Source of the DNA: Lentisphaerae bacterium WC36 | GTDB lineage: Bacteria; Verrucomicrobiota; Lentisphaeria; Victivallales; SZUA-371 | Length of the DNA stretch: 64,000 nucleotides | Direction: 5' to 3' | Assembly (NCBI GenBank): GCA_020683205.1 | Contig: CP085689.1 | Coordinates: 1-64,000 of the forward strand | Shown: positions 1,059-29,233 of the stretch, piece by piece | Layout of the letters: each line of letters opens with the position of its first letter | How positions within the stretch are numbered: position 1 is the stretch's first letter | Made by a program: the position numbers and the translations under genes | Notes under the pieces: model-generated | The model's input: the letters and a program-made list of their open reading frames with translations, nothing else | Database searches by the model: none | What the model was told of the DNA's origin: nothing

Positions 1059-1610
1059 TTATTCATTCTCTCCAGTATTCGGTTGCTTGGCAATTGAATT
1101 AATTGCTAAATAGTTATAATTAAAAGTTCTAATTCCAAGATCAATATTTTGTTCAGTGACAAATTCATATCTTCGGCACGTTCTGCCATATTTACGAATA
1201 ATTTCATTCATCAATTCGTTGTTGTTGCTAATGTCAGAATTACTCAATACTAGTTGAATAACATCCCAGTTTTCAACGTCAATACGTTCATTTTGTGCTA
1301 CGCTACCAAGTTTTAAGCGATTCCAAATATTTTCAAATCCAGCCACACTGCCAGCATCAAGGGCATTGGCCAAGGCATGTTTTACACGAAGTCTGAACAT
1401 CTCTTCTGGTTCATTTTTTAGTCTGTCAATATCACGCCCCCAAGCAATTAATTTGACGATTGTTAATGGCGCAGTTTCTACATCAGTCGCATTTGGCAAC
1501 CACATTAAGTATTCTTGCATTTTATTCCACCACCCATCAAATAACTTTGCAATCTTGCTTAAATCCTCTTTGCATTGCCAAAATTTTAAGTTTATTTGTG
1601 GTCGCTTCAT
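1059..1610 (-). CDS. I: Phage tail protein I (baseplate wedge, P2 gpI-like)
   Basis: A 183-residue protein between the portal/J genes and the tail fibre gene. It has the gpI pattern: an N-terminal region with W-rich segments (residues ~9-40), then LPxATDVETAPLTIVKLIAWGRD, then a C-terminal domain. In P2 gpI joins gpJ in the baseplate and links it to the fibre gpH. Its ATG overlaps the portal stop codon as ATGA (1607-1610), so translation is probably coupled. P2 gpI is of similar length (about 176). I am fairly sure from position and sequence style, though the family is poorly conserved. Confidence 0.78.
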   Translation of the reverse strand: MKRPQINLKFWQCKEDLSKIAKLFDGWWNKMQEYLMWLPNATDVETAPLTIVKLIAWGRDIDRLKNEPEEMFRLRVKHALANALDAGSVAGFENIWNRLKLGSVAQNERIDVENWDVIQLVLSNSDISNNNELMNEIIRKYGRTCRRYEFVTEQNIDLGIRTFNYNYLAINSIAKQPNTGENE

Positions 1611-2653
1611 GAGATAACATCATCCAAAATTTTAAATTGAAGTCTTTTATTTTTAGGTAAACGCTCATTAATTTCACAGAACGTTTGAGCCATTGCTCTT
1701 ACTTCAATATCAATGTAATTTTCTTTTGCTTCAGTCGGCTTTGAAAATCCACCAACATTTTCTGGGATAACTCCCATTAATACTGGTTGGATGCGATGAG
1801 CAATCAAAATATCAGTTTCAGTAATATTTTTGATTTTTTCAAATTCATCCTTTTGGGATATGTCGCCCACTGGAATAATTTTTATTGAATCGGGATTGCC
1901 GTTGGCAATATGTAAAAACATGCTAGAAAAGTTCCCAACGCCTTTACCTTGTTTAATATTTTCTTGCAATTTTTTTTGTGCAGATTTACTCAATTTTGCG
2001 TCCGTACTATAAAAAATATAGCCAAGATGAGCCCCATTATTAAAATATTTACGTCTAAAAAGAGTCGCATCTTCAGCTAATAACGCACTTTGCATACTTC
2101 CCAACCAATCTGGAATGCCATACACATTTTGTGCCGCATCATATTCATAAATGTGAATGATTTCTCCAGGCATAAATTCAGTAATCTTACCGTCAGATTG
2201 TAAAAAACAGTATTGATTAGGCTTGGTCATGCGTCTAACATTCAATGCTGGAACGTGTTTATATTTATAAACTTCACCATTACGCAATCTTAATTCTTGT
2301 AAATAGGCATTGCCAAAAGTCAAAAAATCAAGGTTGGCCGCTTTAAAATCTTTATAACTAATAATATTAGTACGAACTAAACTATTGCTAAGCATATTAC
2401 GTCTAAAATAAATGCAACTTCCGTGATGACCATTAGCACGGTTCATTTTACTTAAGCCTCTTAAATCAACTGGGGGCAAATAATACTTACCATTAACATC
2501 CGTAACAACATTCAAATAATCAGTAAAATTACTTTTATGTACCTGTACTGGGTCGCCAAAGCTTAAATCTACAGTCTGTTCAATATTTTCAGCAGTCATA
2601 TTAATTTGTGCTGCTTTTTTATTTCGTTTTTTATTTTGTCTTTTCTTACCCAT
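1607..2653 (-). CDS. Q: Phage portal protein (P2 gpQ / PBSX-family)
   Basis: This 348-residue protein would form the dodecameric portal at the capsid vertex through which DNA is packaged and to which head and tail join. Recognisable features are a lysine-rich N-terminus, LPPVDLRGLSKMNRANGHHG (residues ~58-77), a long central segment ending in IYEYDAAQNVYGIPDWLGSM, and the C-terminal region RIQPVLMGVIPENVGGFSKP. P2 gpQ is 344 residues, so the length fits. The position is odd. In P2 this gene is beside terminase P, far from the tail genes, but here it sits between baseplate genes J (3 nt upstream) and I (4-nt overlap). I see no sign of decay. Confidence 0.88.
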   Translation of the reverse strand: MGKKRQNKKRNKKAAQINMTAENIEQTVDLSFGDPVQVHKSNFTDYLNVVTDVNGKYYLPPVDLRGLSKMNRANGHHGSCIYFRRNMLSNSLVRTNIISYKDFKAANLDFLTFGNAYLQELRLRNGEVYKYKHVPALNVRRMTKPNQYCFLQSDGKITEFMPGEIIHIYEYDAAQNVYGIPDWLGSMQSALLAEDATLFRRKYFNNGAHLGYIFYSTDAKLSKSAQKKLQENIKQGKGVGNFSSMFLHIANGNPDSIKIIPVGDISQKDEFEKIKNITETDILIAHRIQPVLMGVIPENVGGFSKPTEAKENYIDIEVRAMAQTFCEINERLPKNKRLQFKILDDVIS

Positions 2654-17884: not shown

Positions 17885-19459
17885 TTATTTTTTATGATAT
17901 TTCAAAAAATCATAAATCTGAAGCAACTTTTTTATTTGAGAATTATGCTTTGAAGCAAACCAATCTGAATCCAATTCAACTATTTTTATTAAAGATTCTT
18001 TTAATAAATTAATATCAATTTCTTCTTCTTGTAATTTTAAGCAGTGAATAACAAATCCTTGTATATCTTCTTGTTTGTCAAGCGAGTGAATTGATAATAT
18101 ATTTTCAATTGAAAATGATGTTTTATTCTTTCTTGACTGCTCCATAGATCTTGTAATATAATCTTCAAAACTAGTTTTTAACTTTTCTTGAACCTTGTTA
18201 GGTAACTCATCTTCATAATGACGGCAGTATTTGTGCATTGGGGTACTTCCACTGAAATGTTTTATATGATCAGGGATTGTAAGTTCTACAATTTTGTTGT
18301 TGTCAAAATTTTTGTTATCATAAAGTAAATCTAAATATAAATCTTTCGGTTCTAAGGAACCATATCCTATTTGACTATGAACTCCAACCCCAATAACTAC
18401 TTCTAAGTCTTCAATATTATCAACATCTTCAATGCCTACAGCCCGCACCTTTTCTATAGGTTCATTAGTTTTTACTAATTCATAAATGTGCTGTTTTAAT
18501 GTTCTTAAAACTTGAGGTTTGAATGATTCTCTATTTTTTTGAATAGCTTTATAAACAAATTCAAAAGAGCTTGTTTTAAATAACTCGACATTAATTCTTT
18601 GCCCATTATCAACTGTAATAATATTATTTTGGTGTGTTGGGTCTTGACAATTTTCATCAAATTCTATAAAAATTAACCTTTTCCCTAATGATAATAACTG
18701 TTCATTTGTCAGTCCATTAGCAATAGCTCCAAATATTTTTTTTATATTTGGATCAGAAATAGAGTAACCTAGAAATATTATCGGATGTTCAATAAAAAAT
18801 GTAATTAATTTAGCTGCAAGGTAGGGATTTTTTTCATCAAATATTTTATAATCATCTTTGTTGATAATTATACTTTCTGGTTTACTACAACAGCCGTGAA
18901 TTTTATATATTTCTGCGATATTATATATGGGTTTGAATAACAAATCATTTTGACCAATATAAGTTGTAAAGTTTGGAAAACATTTTTCTAAAAATAAATC
19001 ATAATTTGTCGTAATAATACCCGCAATTTTATTTTGAATGCTTTTCAATAACTGAACTTCTGCAGTGTAATTATCATTAACTTCATAATAATCTTTTTTA
19101 AATTTTTCAGCAACTGCTATTTTAAATGGATCCACATCTCGACTAATTAAAGCGTAGTGTCTATTCCTAAAATCCTCCTCGTCAACATCTTCATATATTT
19201 TTTTTGAAAAATCATCAGAAATTAAAGATGCTATTGCTGGGAATTTTAAATATTCATTACTTCTATCTTCCTCTCTTAAATTTCGTTCATAAGATTTATA
19301 AGGTAAAGGTAAATGAGGTTTTATTTTTTGAGCAAAATCTTCCAATAAATTTTGCCAATTTGGAAAGTTTAAATATCTTCGACTTATTCCACTTCCTATA
19401 AATAGAAAAGGAAATGTTTTTGCATCTTTTAGTAGTAGTTGTAATTTTTTATCTGGCAT
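17885..19459 (-). CDS. SIR2-like domain protein, probable anti-phage defence effector
   Basis: A 524-residue protein. Residues ~1-290 are a SIR2-like fold: FLFIGSGISRRYLNFPNWQNL near residue 18 (NAD-binding), GIITTNYDLFLE (~148), KIHGC (~197) and FLGYSISDPNIKKIFG (~233). Proteins of this kind in Thoeris, DSR and related systems degrade NAD+ during phage infection. The C-terminal ~230 residues are not a domain I recognise and may sense infection; the segment VEVVIGVGVHSQIG-like at ~345 is followed by charged helices. It is a single gene with its own promoter region, flanked by small phage genes, as is usual for cargo of P2-like prophages. I infer defence, and no test can be made from sequence alone. 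Confidence 0.8.
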   Translation of the reverse strand: MPDKKLQLLLKDAKTFPFLFIGSGISRRYLNFPNWQNLLEDFAQKIKPHLPLPYKSYERNLREEDRSNEYLKFPAIASLISDDFSKKIYEDVDEEDFRNRHYALISRDVDPFKIAVAEKFKKDYYEVNDNYTAEVQLLKSIQNKIAGIITTNYDLFLEKCFPNFTTYIGQNDLLFKPIYNIAEIYKIHGCCSKPESIIINKDDYKIFDEKNPYLAAKLITFFIEHPIIFLGYSISDPNIKKIFGAIANGLTNEQLLSLGKRLIFIEFDENCQDPTHQNNIITVDNGQRINVELFKTSSFEFVYKAIQKNRESFKPQVLRTLKQHIYELVKTNEPIEKVRAVGIEDVDNIEDLEVVIGVGVHSQIGYGSLEPKDLYLDLLYDNKNFDNNKIVELTIPDHIKHFSGSTPMHKYCRHYEDELPNKVQEKLKTSFEDYITRSMEQSRKNKTSFSIENILSIHSLDKQEDIQGFVIHCLKLQEEEIDINLLKESLIKIVELDSDWFASKHNSQIKKLLQIYDFLKYHKK

Positions 19460-24622: not shown

Positions 24623-24775
24623 TTAATCAAATACATTGTATTCAATTTGAGCATTAATCGCATCTGGGCATTCACTCAATGCTTTGTGTTCTGCTTCAGC
24701 TAAAGAATTTGCTTTTGCGTAATAATTGCAAAATCTACCAAATTCATCTTCATAAATAAATTCATACATTTTCAT
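24623..24775 (-). CDS. Small hypothetical protein (50 residues)
   Basis: ATG at 24773-24775 behind a strong AGGAGG, overlapping the last codons of the Bro-N gene by 14 nt. Product MKMYEFIYEDEFGRFCNYYAK... ends YNVFD. The compact beta-beta-helix look (YEFIYEDE...AEAEHKALSE) is common among small phage proteins of unknown role. Part of the leftward early operon. Confidence 0.6.
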   Translation of the reverse strand: MKMYEFIYEDEFGRFCNYYAKANSLAEAEHKALSECPDAINAQIEYNVFD

Positions 24776-25271
24776 TACTTTCCTCCTTTTGGTTAAATAA
24801 TGTTGGTTGATTTAAGTTTATTTTTGCATGTTTGCATGAACGGAAATGTGGACGAACAGCAATTAATCTGCGATAATTGGTTTTATCGCTCATTTCTCCA
24901 TATTTAGCATCTGGAAAAAAATGTTGAATAAAATTTCTTATCTCCATTTCATCTTTTGTTGACAGATAAAAACCGTATTTGCGAATTGATGGCAAGACTT
25001 CACTTGTTACCCATTTTCTAAATTCTTTGGCAACTGGTTTTCTTGATTTAAAAATTAAATGATAAAGTCCAGATTCATTAACAACGTTTGTGAGTCCTTG
25101 ACGCCCTAACTTAAAGTTAGACCGTTCATCATCATCTAAACTACGTAATGCCTTTGTTGGATTTGATAGTTTTAGAATATCGCAAACGTCTTTTGCAACG
25201 AACCAAATTTGATTGTCTTTAAAAACGGTTCTGACATTTTGATTGTTAAAGTTGTGTAATTTGTTTTCCAT
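24762..25271 (-). CDS. Bro-N domain protein (phage antirepressor/regulator type)
   Basis: A 169-residue protein from ATG 25269-25271; a longer frame exists upstream, but it runs through the coding region of the next small gene, so I reject it. Residues ~8-105 are a Bro-N domain: VRTVFKDNQIWFVAKDVCDIL, LSNPTKALRSLDDDER, LYHLIFKSRKPVAKEFRKWV and TSEVLPSIRKYGFYL. The C-terminal ~60 residues are not a domain I know. Bro-N proteins in phages act as antirepressors or DNA-binding regulators. It lies early in the leftward operon facing the repressor. Confidence 0.83.
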   Translation of the reverse strand: MENKLHNFNNQNVRTVFKDNQIWFVAKDVCDILKLSNPTKALRSLDDDERSNFKLGRQGLTNVVNESGLYHLIFKSRKPVAKEFRKWVTSEVLPSIRKYGFYLSTKDEMEIRNFIQHFFPDAKYGEMSDKTNYRRLIAVRPHFRSCKHAKINLNQPTLFNQKEESNENV

Positions 25272-25648: not shown

Positions 25649-26008
25649 ATGACAGAAAAAGAAGTCTTAAACGCTATAAAAGTTGCTTGTCAGCTTGAAA
25701 AAAGTCAAAATGCATTTGCAAAGAAAATTAATATTAGCCAAACAGCTATTAATAAAATTGTTAATGGAAAAAGTAAGATTGGTAATATTTCAGTTGAAAC
25801 GCTTATGAAAATATTTCCCAATATGGAAATTGACTTTTTCAGCTCAAAAAATACTGATAATAGTGTAGTAGGAAAAATTAATAAATTTATTGCTAAACTC
25901 TCTGAAGACCAGCAACTGGAAGTTTTACTGATGCTTGGAGCTGAATTTCCAGAGATAGTTAAAGGTAATAAAGAAAAGGAGAATGACGCCCTCGAAAAAA
26001 CGGCGTAA
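25649..26008 (+). CDS. Phage repressor, XRE helix-turn-helix family (C-like)
   Basis: A 119-residue protein: residues ~8-60 are an XRE DNA-binding domain (SQNAFAKKINISQTAINKIVNGKSKIGNISV split over helices 2-4), and the C-terminus is a short dimer-type helix region (KINKFIAKLSEDQQLEVLLMLG). No LexA-like peptidase domain, so it resembles P2 C rather than lambda CI. It is transcribed away from the early operon and would maintain lysogeny. Confidence 0.8.
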   Translation: MTEKEVLNAIKVACQLEKSQNAFAKKINISQTAINKIVNGKSKIGNISVETLMKIFPNMEIDFFSSKNTDNSVVGKINKFIAKLSEDQQLEVLLMLGAEFPEIVKGNKEKENDALEKTA

Positions 26009-26128: not shown

Positions 26129-26485
26129 ATGCCATCCGAATATAAAACTTACTATATTGCTCATGCTGGTGGATACGAATCAGATATAATTTTTGAAGAT
26201 GATTTGATTAAAGATCCTTGCTTTTACGGCCTTTATTCTTGGAATAATAAAGATTATTTTTTAAGTCCAGCTGAAATTGGTGAACGTGATAAAGATCCTG
26301 TATTAAAATTAGAAAATGCTATTGAAAAAGAAAATTATTCCTATTGGGGATGGACTCCTGCAATTACCAATATTAATAAAGAAAAATATTTAAAATTATT
26401 AGATTTATATAATAAAGACAAAGCTGAATATAAAAAATATTACGATGAATTACTTACTGAAATTAATGAAGATTGGAATTGTTAA
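26129..26485 (+). CDS. Unknown protein, first gene of a three-gene cassette
   Basis: A 118-residue acidic protein with many Tyr and Trp residues (YSYWGWTPAITNINKEKYLKL). AAGG precedes the ATG at 8 nt. It ends 2 nt before the BRCT gene's ATG. I recognise no family. Being tightly joined to the BRCT and DUF4062 genes, it probably works with them. Confidence 0.6.
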   Translation: MPSEYKTYYIAHAGGYESDIIFEDDLIKDPCFYGLYSWNNKDYFLSPAEIGERDKDPVLKLENAIEKENYSYWGWTPAITNINKEKYLKLLDLYNKDKAEYKKYYDELLTEINEDWNC

Positions 26486-26487
26486 TT

Positions 26488-27279
26488 ATGATAAATAAAC
26501 AACAAGCCATTGAAGATTCTTTATCTTTATTTACTTATTCTTACGAAGAACAACATAATTTAGCAGAAAGGTTTAATGCTCCAATTCGTTATGAAAACGC
26601 TATTTCTCAATTGCAAGGTTTAGCTTATGCCATTGTCTTTGATAATATTATTAGTAATGATGAATTAAAAACTCTTTTATATTGGTTACATCATAATTCA
26701 GAGTTTTTAGAGCACTGGCCACTGAATTCAATTTGTGATATTTTTCTTGAAGCTAGAGAAAATAAAAGCTTCTCTAATGAGCAAAGAACTAAATTGTTTA
26801 GCCTGCTAGAAAAAATTGGCAAAGTTGATGACGTGTGTAACGCTATTTTTGATGATATAGATGAAAGTGACCATTTTTATTCAAAAACTGTAATTATTAC
26901 GGGAAATTTCAATGATTTAAAAAGGGCTGAAGTTTTAGAAAAATTATATGATTTTAATATTACGGCTCAAAATAAAGATGTTACTTTTGAAACAGATTAT
27001 GTTGTGGTTGGGGCTAAAGGATCAAGAAATTGGCGTTTCGGTAAATTCGGTCGCAAAATTGAAAAAGCTATTGAATATCGGGATCAAAGAGAAGTCCCAT
27101 TAAAAATTATTAATGAAGAAACATTTTTTAAGTTGTTGCAGAATAGACCAGCAAACTTAGAAACTATTAAAAATAATGAATTGCACCTTGAACAAATAGA
27201 AAAATTAAATTCGTTACTAGAGCAAAGCGTTTTAACTCAAGAACAATTTGATTCTGCTTTAGAAAATATTATAAGGTAA
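26488..27279 (+). CDS. BRCT-domain protein with N-terminal helical domain
   Basis: A 263-residue protein from ATG 26488; a TTG 15 nt upstream lies inside the previous gene. Residues ~1-125 are helical with the flavour of TerB-like folds (GLAYAIVFDNIISNDELKTL). Residues ~132-225 are a BRCT domain: KTVIITGNFNDLKRAEVLEKL, then FETDYVVVGAKGSRNWRFGKFGRKIEKAIEYRD, close to the BRCT of DNA ligase LigA and of PARP-type proteins. A C-terminal helix pair follows. BRCT domains bind phosphopeptides or DNA ends. Middle gene of the cassette. Confidence 0.78.
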   Translation: MINKQQAIEDSLSLFTYSYEEQHNLAERFNAPIRYENAISQLQGLAYAIVFDNIISNDELKTLLYWLHHNSEFLEHWPLNSICDIFLEARENKSFSNEQRTKLFSLLEKIGKVDDVCNAIFDDIDESDHFYSKTVIITGNFNDLKRAEVLEKLYDFNITAQNKDVTFETDYVVVGAKGSRNWRFGKFGRKIEKAIEYRDQREVPLKIINEETFFKLLQNRPANLETIKNNELHLEQIEKLNSLLEQSVLTQEQFDSALENIIR

Positions 27280-27288
27280 ATAGCAATA

Positions 27289-28275
27289 ATGAGTTTGAAC
27301 AAAAAATATCAAGTTTTCGTAAGTTCGACATATACAGATTTAAAAGAAGAACGAAGAAAAGTAATTCAAACTTTGATGGAGATGGACTGCATTCCTGCAG
27401 GAATGGAATTATTTCCGGCAATGGACGATGAACAGTTTAATTTTATTAAATCCGTAATTGATGATAGTGATTATTATTTACTAATAATTGGAGGGCGTTA
27501 CGGTTCTTTAAATCAAGAAGGAATTAGCTATACTGAAAAAGAGTATGACTATGCCATTGAAAAAGGTATGAAAGTCTTAGCTTTCGTTAATGATAATATC
27601 GAGAATCTACCTTCAAAAAATGTAGACTATGGAGATTTAAAGCAAAAGCTTGATGATTTTAAGAATAAAGTATGTACTGGTCGCCTTGTAAAATTTTGGA
27701 AAAATGCAAGAGATTTACCTGCATTGGTAGCTCTTAGTTTGAATAAGATCAGAACAGTTTATCCTGCAGTAGGTTGGAGTCGTGGTAGTTTTAGTAGCAA
27801 TACAGAATTGCTATCCGAAATAAATGATCTTAGAAAAGAAAATGAAAAACTTAAAAAACAGTTAATAGACTATAATAATGTAGAGAATTTTGGTAATTTA
27901 TCTAATGGGAATGATACTATAGAGTTGTTTGGGACTTGTAAACATGGGTATCCTTCCGTTTCTGCAGAATGGAAAGTGCAGGTTTCATGGAATGAAATTA
28001 TTGAATTAATTGGAGCAAAATTATTTGTTGCAAAAACTAGGCAAAGTATTAATGCAACGCTTAGTAGGTTGTTAGCTCAGAAATTTTATGATATTGTTCA
28101 TTCTGCGAAGTTAGATTTATCTATTTCTAATAAAATAGAACTCCAGCTAACAGCACTAGGTGTAATAAAAAGAGTTATTACGAACGATAGAGGTGGACAC
28201 GAAATAATAAAATTTATAATAACAACACAGGGTGAAAAATTGTTGAATGAATTAACATTGGAAACAAAAAAATAA
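27289..28275 (+). CDS. DUF4062 (TIR-like fold) protein with C-terminal winged-helix-like region
   Basis: A 328-residue protein. Residues ~7-110 are DUF4062: [49 protein letters not shown] and [22 protein letters not shown]. Its strand-helix order resembles TIR domains, and DUF4062 genes are common in defence islands. Residues ~175-195 form a coiled coil, and the last ~110 residues ([15 protein letters not shown] ... [17 protein letters not shown]) look like a winged helix. The gene is 9 nt after the BRCT gene and is closed by a hairpin. An NAD-directed effector with a DNA or partner sensor is my inference. Confidence 0.75.
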
Positions 28276-28285
28276 ATCGTCGATA

Positions 28286-28320
28286 AAGCTGCATATATTT
28301 ATTAATTTTATGTGCAGCTT
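28286..28320 (+). terminator. Terminator after the DUF4062 cassette
   Basis: AAGCTGCA (28286-28293) and TGCAGCTT (28313-28320) are exact inverted repeats around an AT-rich 19-nt loop. They are followed by ATTAAAATTTTAATTTT. It ends the cassette and, with it, the recognisable phage-borne genes. Confidence 0.55.
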
Positions 28321-28337
28321 ATTAAAATTTTAATTTT

Positions 28338-28357
28338 GTAACACAAACGTAACACAA
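28338..28357. repeat. Two direct GTAACACAA repeats one helical turn apart, near the prophage junction
   Basis: GTAACACAA occurs at 28338-28346 and 28349-28357, with starts 11 bp apart. The junction with truncated sulfatase sequence is only about 70 bp further right. Paired short direct repeats near an att core are typical integrase arm-type sites, but no integrase gene or duplicated core is visible here, so this is tentative. Confidence 0.35.
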
Positions 28358-28408: not shown

Positions 28409-29170
28409 TCAGTGTATACTCCGGTTATGGACACCATATAATGACATATTTAAATAAAAGGGTTTATTATCTGAAACGGCTTGCTTTATCTGTTTTTTTG
28501 CTTCTAAAGTCAAGGCTTCTGTTAAATATATATCTTGGTTGTGGTATTTTGTTAATGAAGGAACGGCATTAATTTCTTTTCCCTTTATATGAAAAAATCC
28601 ATCAAGACCGTAGTAACTACCAGGTTTCCCCATATAGCCTCCCGCAATATTAACATCAAATCCTAAATTAAGGGGATTTTCTCCTTCTGAGCTTTTTGGA
28701 CCAAAGTGCCCTTTTCCGATATGAATTGTGAGGTATCCATTATTTTTTAACAGTCTAGGCAAAGTTATACTTTTAGTTGTCAACCCAAGCCAATTCCATT
28801 TTTTGGGACCGTAAGGACTCCTGTTGTTATCAAATGGATAAATCCATAAAGTTGTTCTATGCCGTGCGGAATTTTGCCCAGTTAAAATTGAAATTCTTGT
28901 AGGATAGCAAATGGAGTGTGCATAAAAGTTTGTAAAACATTGTAATTTTTTCCATGTTTGGAGTTTTATAAAAATCATTTAATGGTTGTCTGCATACATT
29001 ACCAGATTTGTCAGTAATGAATGGTACTGATGTATCCATTATTCCTAGATCATCCACTAAAAATATAATGATATTTAGTTGTTCATTTTTAGTACTTATT
29101 TTAGAATTAATATTGTCATTAATCGCATATGTAGCAAGTCCCGATAAAAAAATTTACTATATTTATTCAT
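28409..29170 (-). pseudogene. Type I sulfatase, truncated and frameshifted
   Basis: The remnant begins at ATG 29168-29170 (MNKYSKFF..., good ribosome site AAGGATG). One T lost from a T-run at about 29145-29151 shifts the frame out of what would be a signal peptide (FLSGLATYA). The next piece has IIIFLVDDLGIMDTSVPF (metal-binding Asp pair) and TPNMEK. A second shift near 28945-28960 then moves to FTNFYAHSICYPTRISILTG, the sulfatase active-site C-x-P-T-R motif. It continues through TLPRLLKNNGYLTIHIGKGH to NMSLYGVH. Homology stops at about 28427 and the C-terminal half is absent. The gene was probably cut by prophage or island insertion. Confidence 0.85.
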
Positions 29171-29233
29171 ATTCATCCTTTTTTAGAGTTGATCTTAGCT
29201 AATGTTTAAAAACGATAATAATTTAAAAATATT

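Follow-up and report, generated by a model that had tools for sequence, protein, structure and literature searches.

A Swarozyc relative in the lysogeny region of a P2-like prophage, rather than a new three-gene defense system

Three tightly packed genes, which encode a small protein (P1), a BRCT protein, and a DUF4062 protein, lie at positions 26129-28275 of the window, that is, of the whole stretch of DNA that was analyzed, which forms the opening 64 kb of a contig 3.66 Mb long. Very probably, they are part of the lysogeny region on the plus strand of a P2-like prophage, which carries an abortive-infection gene of the Swarozyc type as cargo. In support of this explanation, both the DUF4062 and the BRCT families are found repeatedly at phage lysogeny-region addresses. 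A preliminary description had proposed that the three genes together form a new defense system. Instead, the defense gene present is a known one, at a position usual for prophage cargo, and the set is not a new three-gene system. The features discussed here are collected in Table 1.

Table 1. Features of the three-gene stretch, its flanks, and the prophage boundaries. Positions are those of the window unless preceded by L110, the sequence past the contig end.
Feature	Position	Strand	Remarks
Prophage's own portal gene	1607-2653		
HTH_3 (cI-like) repressor	25649-26008	+	Pfam HTH_3, E 9.5e-8; PHROG transcriptional regulators
Gene 1 (P1)	26129-26485	+	118 aa; coding signal in frame
Gene 2 (BRCT)	26488-27279	+	263 aa from ATG; 268 aa from upstream TTG
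Gene 3 (DUF4062)	27289-28275	+	328 aa
Terminator-like hairpin with T-rich tail	28286-28330	+	Fold of 28276-28340: -16 kcal/mol, z -4.0
Right prophage boundary	28423-28428		GGTTAT, common to the left boundary at L110:12012-12017
Host sulfatase, N-terminal part	28412-29180	-	PF00884, E 1.5e-13, for the part at 28412-28978
Host sulfatase, C-terminal part	L110:11629-12021	-	At the opposite end of the prophage, beside the tyrosine integrase

The three genes are separated by only 2 nt (P1 to BRCT) and 9 nt (BRCT to DUF4062), and the layout first described is borne out by the agreement between the open reading frames and the coding signal. The codon-usage scores are 0.51 for P1, 0.34 for BRCT, and 0.26 for DUF4062, each gene being positive in its stated frame only, while the scores of every other frame are negative. 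The HTH_3 repressor upstream of P1 marks the start of the plus-strand lysogeny region and, with the split sulfatase at the right end, it places the genes between a repressor and the phage junction, as had been described. A terminator after the third gene is also plausible in view of the fold energy, z score, and T-rich tail of the hairpin, which was overlooked by a simple terminator scanner because its loop is long. In a scan for sigma-70 promoters, 20 sites were obtained against 18.3 in shuffled sequences; this is not an excess, and no promoter is claimed. Expression of the DUF4062 gene in the lysogen probably relies on a transcript shared with the lysogeny genes, a co-transcription that we infer, and the tight spacing would also fit a functional coupling of the three genes. 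On the opposite strand, a BRO-N domain antirepressor-like gene (24762-25271) adjoins the repressor.

The phage genes of the window include matches to P2-like portal, sheath, baseplate, and tape-measure proteins, and the phage genes run on beyond the end of the contig to a tyrosine integrase (L110:12155-13237). Comparison of both junctions revealed that the reading frame of a host sulfatase is split by the prophage, with the N-terminal half ending at about 28412. The contig was treated as circular because the splitting of this gene across its ends supports circularity and, with the contig taken in this way, the prophage measures about 36.4 kb. In the circularized order, the repressor, P1, BRCT, and DUF4062 genes, attP, and the integrase follow one another on one strand. 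A long att core was sought at both junctions and was not found, as only the 6 bp GGTTAT are in common. The N-terminal half of the sulfatase also contains a frameshift near 28960, and the host gene is thus doubly broken. Elsewhere in the same prophage, a minus-strand gene (17885-19459) encodes a SIR2_2 protein of 524 aa that matches the PADLOC candidate PDC-S25 (E 1.5e-149), with a weaker match to ThsA. Counting the DUF4062 gene, two likely NAD-consuming defense genes are thus carried by the prophage.

In a preprint of May 2026, DUF4062 was described as a TIR-like NADase which, combined with a winged-helix AUX domain, constitutes Swarozyc, a single-gene abortive-infection system triggered by a phage portal protein; the KpSwz structures (PDB 10wc, 11cq, and 11cv) were solved with the mutation E97A (PMC13174449). 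The proposed defense role of the third gene is supported by its membership in this family, and its novelty is lost for the same reason. The protein matches Pfam DUF4062 (PF13271, E 5.7e-30) and, in a phmmer comparison, KpSwz (PDB 10wc) with an E value of 2.2e-72 across residues 2-295. Identity to KpSwz is 62% over the TIR-like residues 2-165 and 23% over the AUX residues 205-295. Three domains can be distinguished, namely, a TIR-like NADase domain at about 4-165, a coiled stalk at 172-196, and a winged-helix AUX domain at 210-323. Thus, gene 3 is a clear Swarozyc relative, as both its sequence and its fold show.

As to the fold, the AF2 model of gene 3 has a pLDDT of 87, and its N-terminal domain, aligned with VIA-align, matches the TIR domains of RPS4/RRS1 (Z 12.5), SPARTA (11.9), and SARM1 (11.1), in agreement with the TIR-like fold that had been anticipated. 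The model also matches the related nucleoside-hydrolase folds MilB/DNPH1 (Z 13.4). Modeled residues 210-323 have a winged-helix topology, with PadR-like Foldseek matches of about 90 residues, and stand where KpSwz has its sensor. The KpSwz structure is itself absent from the fold-search matches, the structure library reaching up to April 2026; consequently, the likeness to KpSwz comes from the sequence match to the PDB entry. Similarly, no model in PADLOC 2023 matches the DUF4062 protein because of the date of that library.

The residue E85 of gene 3 aligns with E97 of KpSwz, which is an alanine in the solved chain, and is the predicted catalytic glutamate. Both E83 and E85 are conserved in 90 of the 90 aligned homologues with a residue at these positions, and all the invariant residues of the family are kept. 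By homology to KpSwz, the protein would be an NADase that senses phage portals. The trigger may, however, be other than the portal, as identity to KpSwz falls to 23% in the AUX domain and the anchor Trp238 of KpSwz has no counterpart in the alignment.

If the mechanism of KpSwz is transferred to this prophage, the DUF4062 protein would be held in the lysogen as inactive multimers. Upon infection by another phage, the portal of the latter, or a similar late structural part, would be bound by the C-terminal winged-helix domain, and this binding would realign the TIR-like domains. Hydrolysis of NAD+ through Glu85 would then yield ADP-ribose and nicotinamide, and cell death would precede phage release. 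It is known that P2-like phages carry defense hotspots (PMC9122126), and the location expected by the preliminary description, a slot for prophage cargo, is where the DUF4062 gene sits.

The neighborhoods of related genes are informative about the partners of DUF4062. With the gene 3 protein, 80 genomic and 12 viral loci were found, and the DNA inspected around each was usually ±8 kb in genomes and ±6 kb in viral contigs. Within the fetched DNA, a relative of BRCT or P1 was observed at none of 91 related loci, and no neighbor family is present at more than 5 of the 91. Moreover, no close neighbor on the same strand was seen at 52 of 85 loci. On the genomic side, these counts (over 91 and 85 loci) are those of a single-gene system, as Swarozyc was described. 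The viral contigs are mostly fragments, so that an absence in them is weak evidence for any single phage. Some neighborhoods have features of their own. For instance, four loci (L022, L031, L059, and L079) share an identical set of several large neighbor genes around DUF4062, which we presume may be type I restriction-modification genes. In four viral loci (L082, L084, L086, and L090), many neighbors of DUF4062 are encoded on the other strand, as for a typical moron, and several of the neighbors look like phage structural genes.

The second gene leads in turn to the lysogeny module. Although Pfam's own BRCT model does not match gene 2, its assignment as a BRCT gene holds indirectly, through matches to the BRCT regions of the NCBIfam models PRK06195 and LigA and to phrog_3989 (E 3.2e-30, residues 24-219). 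The protein is composed of a conserved helical N-terminal domain, the BRCT domain, and a weak SHOCT-like tail, and its relatives in phages and viral contigs are about 22-40% identical. Common ligands of BRCT domains are phosphorylated peptides and 5′-phosphate DNA ends. In gene 2, T138, G139, and K190 are kept. They correspond to the TG and K that typify phosphate-binding domains of this kind and, by analogy with other BRCT domains, would fit such a function.

In IMG/VR, short patterns from the BRCT query yielded nothing, while an alignment query gave matches. The neighbors of 34 representative viral BRCT loci include 14 S24-type, 13 HTH_3, and 5 CII (CP76) proteins; here, too, an HTH_3 repressor lies two genes upstream. 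Neither DUF4062 nor P1 was found within ±5 kb at any of 57 viral BRCT loci. In a phage with a similar replication primase (L112), the BRCT protein carries an N-terminal extension that reads, by eye, as a helix-turn-helix, and the record of this phage contains no DUF4062. The gene in question (L112:4722-6350, plus strand) encodes 542 aa, in which the apparent helix-turn-helix and the BRCT region are joined to additional C-terminal sequence, possibly ending in a membrane helix. BRCT proteins have also been listed among lysis-lysogeny modules of the DNA-damage type in a preprint of July 2026 (PMC13345283). Gene 2 is best read, from its address, as a lysogeny-control gene; it would serve phage regulation or be linked to DNA damage, and would not be a component of a defense system.

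The first gene, P1, is a real but orphan ORF. Its product is acidic (pI 4.5), and no credible relative was detected in Pfam, PHROGs, NCBIfam, PADLOC, PDB, phages, plasmids, or an IMG/VR pattern scan, nor in 288 genomes of the phylum and 197 of the class; the matches obtained were at chance level (best E 0.018). A weak Pfam match to Shadoo fell under the cut-off of that model and was discarded. The AF2 prediction from the single sequence (pLDDT 55) is unreliable and too poor for a fold search. P1 may be a recent insertion between the repressor and the BRCT gene and, judging by its address, would be an accessory gene.

If gene 3 is triggered by portals, as KpSwz is, the prophage would carry a suicide gene while producing a portal of its own once induced, and the question arises of how self-activation is avoided. 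One answer would be that P1, BRCT, or both are phage partners, acquired to couple the NADase to the lysogeny switch. The NADase would then protect the lysogen, but induction of its own prophage would see it restrained or re-targeted. We consider this unlikely; if true, it would be a defense gene with phage-specific self-tolerance. More narrowly, P1 might inhibit the NADase or confer immunity to it, for example so that the prophage's own portal does not set it off at induction. Such a phage needs some way round self-activation, and P1 is small, acidic, and encoded in the same operon, yet no P1 relative stands beside any other DUF4062 gene, the phage-borne ones included. Since, in addition, the two genes are not adjacent and AUX specificity alone could account for tolerance, this role for P1 is quite improbable.

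A single multi-component system made up of all three genes, in which BRCT or P1 would control the NADase or sense on its behalf, is very unlikely. The tight operon, the phosphate-binding-type residues of the BRCT domain, and the fact that some DUF4062 homologues are in operons with other enzymes (PMC13174449) are in line with that proposal. Nevertheless, DUF4062 has a sensor-like AUX domain of its own, and BRCT has an independent recurrent address adjoining repressors. Furthermore, co-occurrence of the genes elsewhere, on which the proposal had been staked beforehand, is not seen at the 91 DUF4062 or the 57 viral BRCT loci, and P1 has no detectable relative. In general, a tight operon and a defense domain by themselves are weak grounds for claiming a new multi-gene system. 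Also very unlikely is that DUF4062 survives here as a fossil or is carried along without activity. In favor of this, the prophage lies in a sulfatase that also has a frameshift, and may itself be old; against it, the 328-aa frame is intact, with a good coding score and the invariant family residues in place.

The preferred explanation, a Swarozyc-type gene as cargo of the lysogeny region, places such an NADase in the cI-int slot of P2-like prophages, and does so in a host group far from the Klebsiella/Enterobacteriaceae proteins that have been tested. Compared with KpSwz, gene 3 has the same order of domains (TIR-like, helical stalk, and winged-helix AUX), a TIR-like domain that is 62% identical with the catalytic Glu conserved, and the character of a stand-alone gene. 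In contrast to KpSwz, its AUX domain is divergent and without the Trp238 anchor, and the gene belongs to a P2-like prophage, where two phage genes share its tight operon. A full-length match to phrog_15411 (residues 3-325 of 328, E 5e-97) indicates that phage-borne versions are already in sequence collections, although PHROGs v4 gives this family no function.

The cI-int slot is used independently by DUF4062 in another P2-type phage. In the viral contig IMGVR_UViG_3300049783_001738 (L087), a replication nickase and Cox are encoded on one strand, and a cI-like repressor, a DUF4062 gene, and an integrase on the other. This DUF4062 gene is 61% identical to gene 3 over residues 3-192. The contig differs from the prophage described here in having neither BRCT nor P1; therefore, Swarozyc genes enter the cI-int slot of P2-like phages alone. 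The converse arrangement is seen in Vibrio phage K139, where a homologue of gene 2, longer at its N terminus, stands in the order cI, BRCT (orf2), glo, int. There, P1 is lacking and the place of Swarozyc is taken by glo, which is annotated as a phage exclusion gene. The order in the lysogenic region of K139 otherwise corresponds to that of the circularized prophage: a repressor, a BRCT gene, an extra gene, and an integrase, all on one strand.
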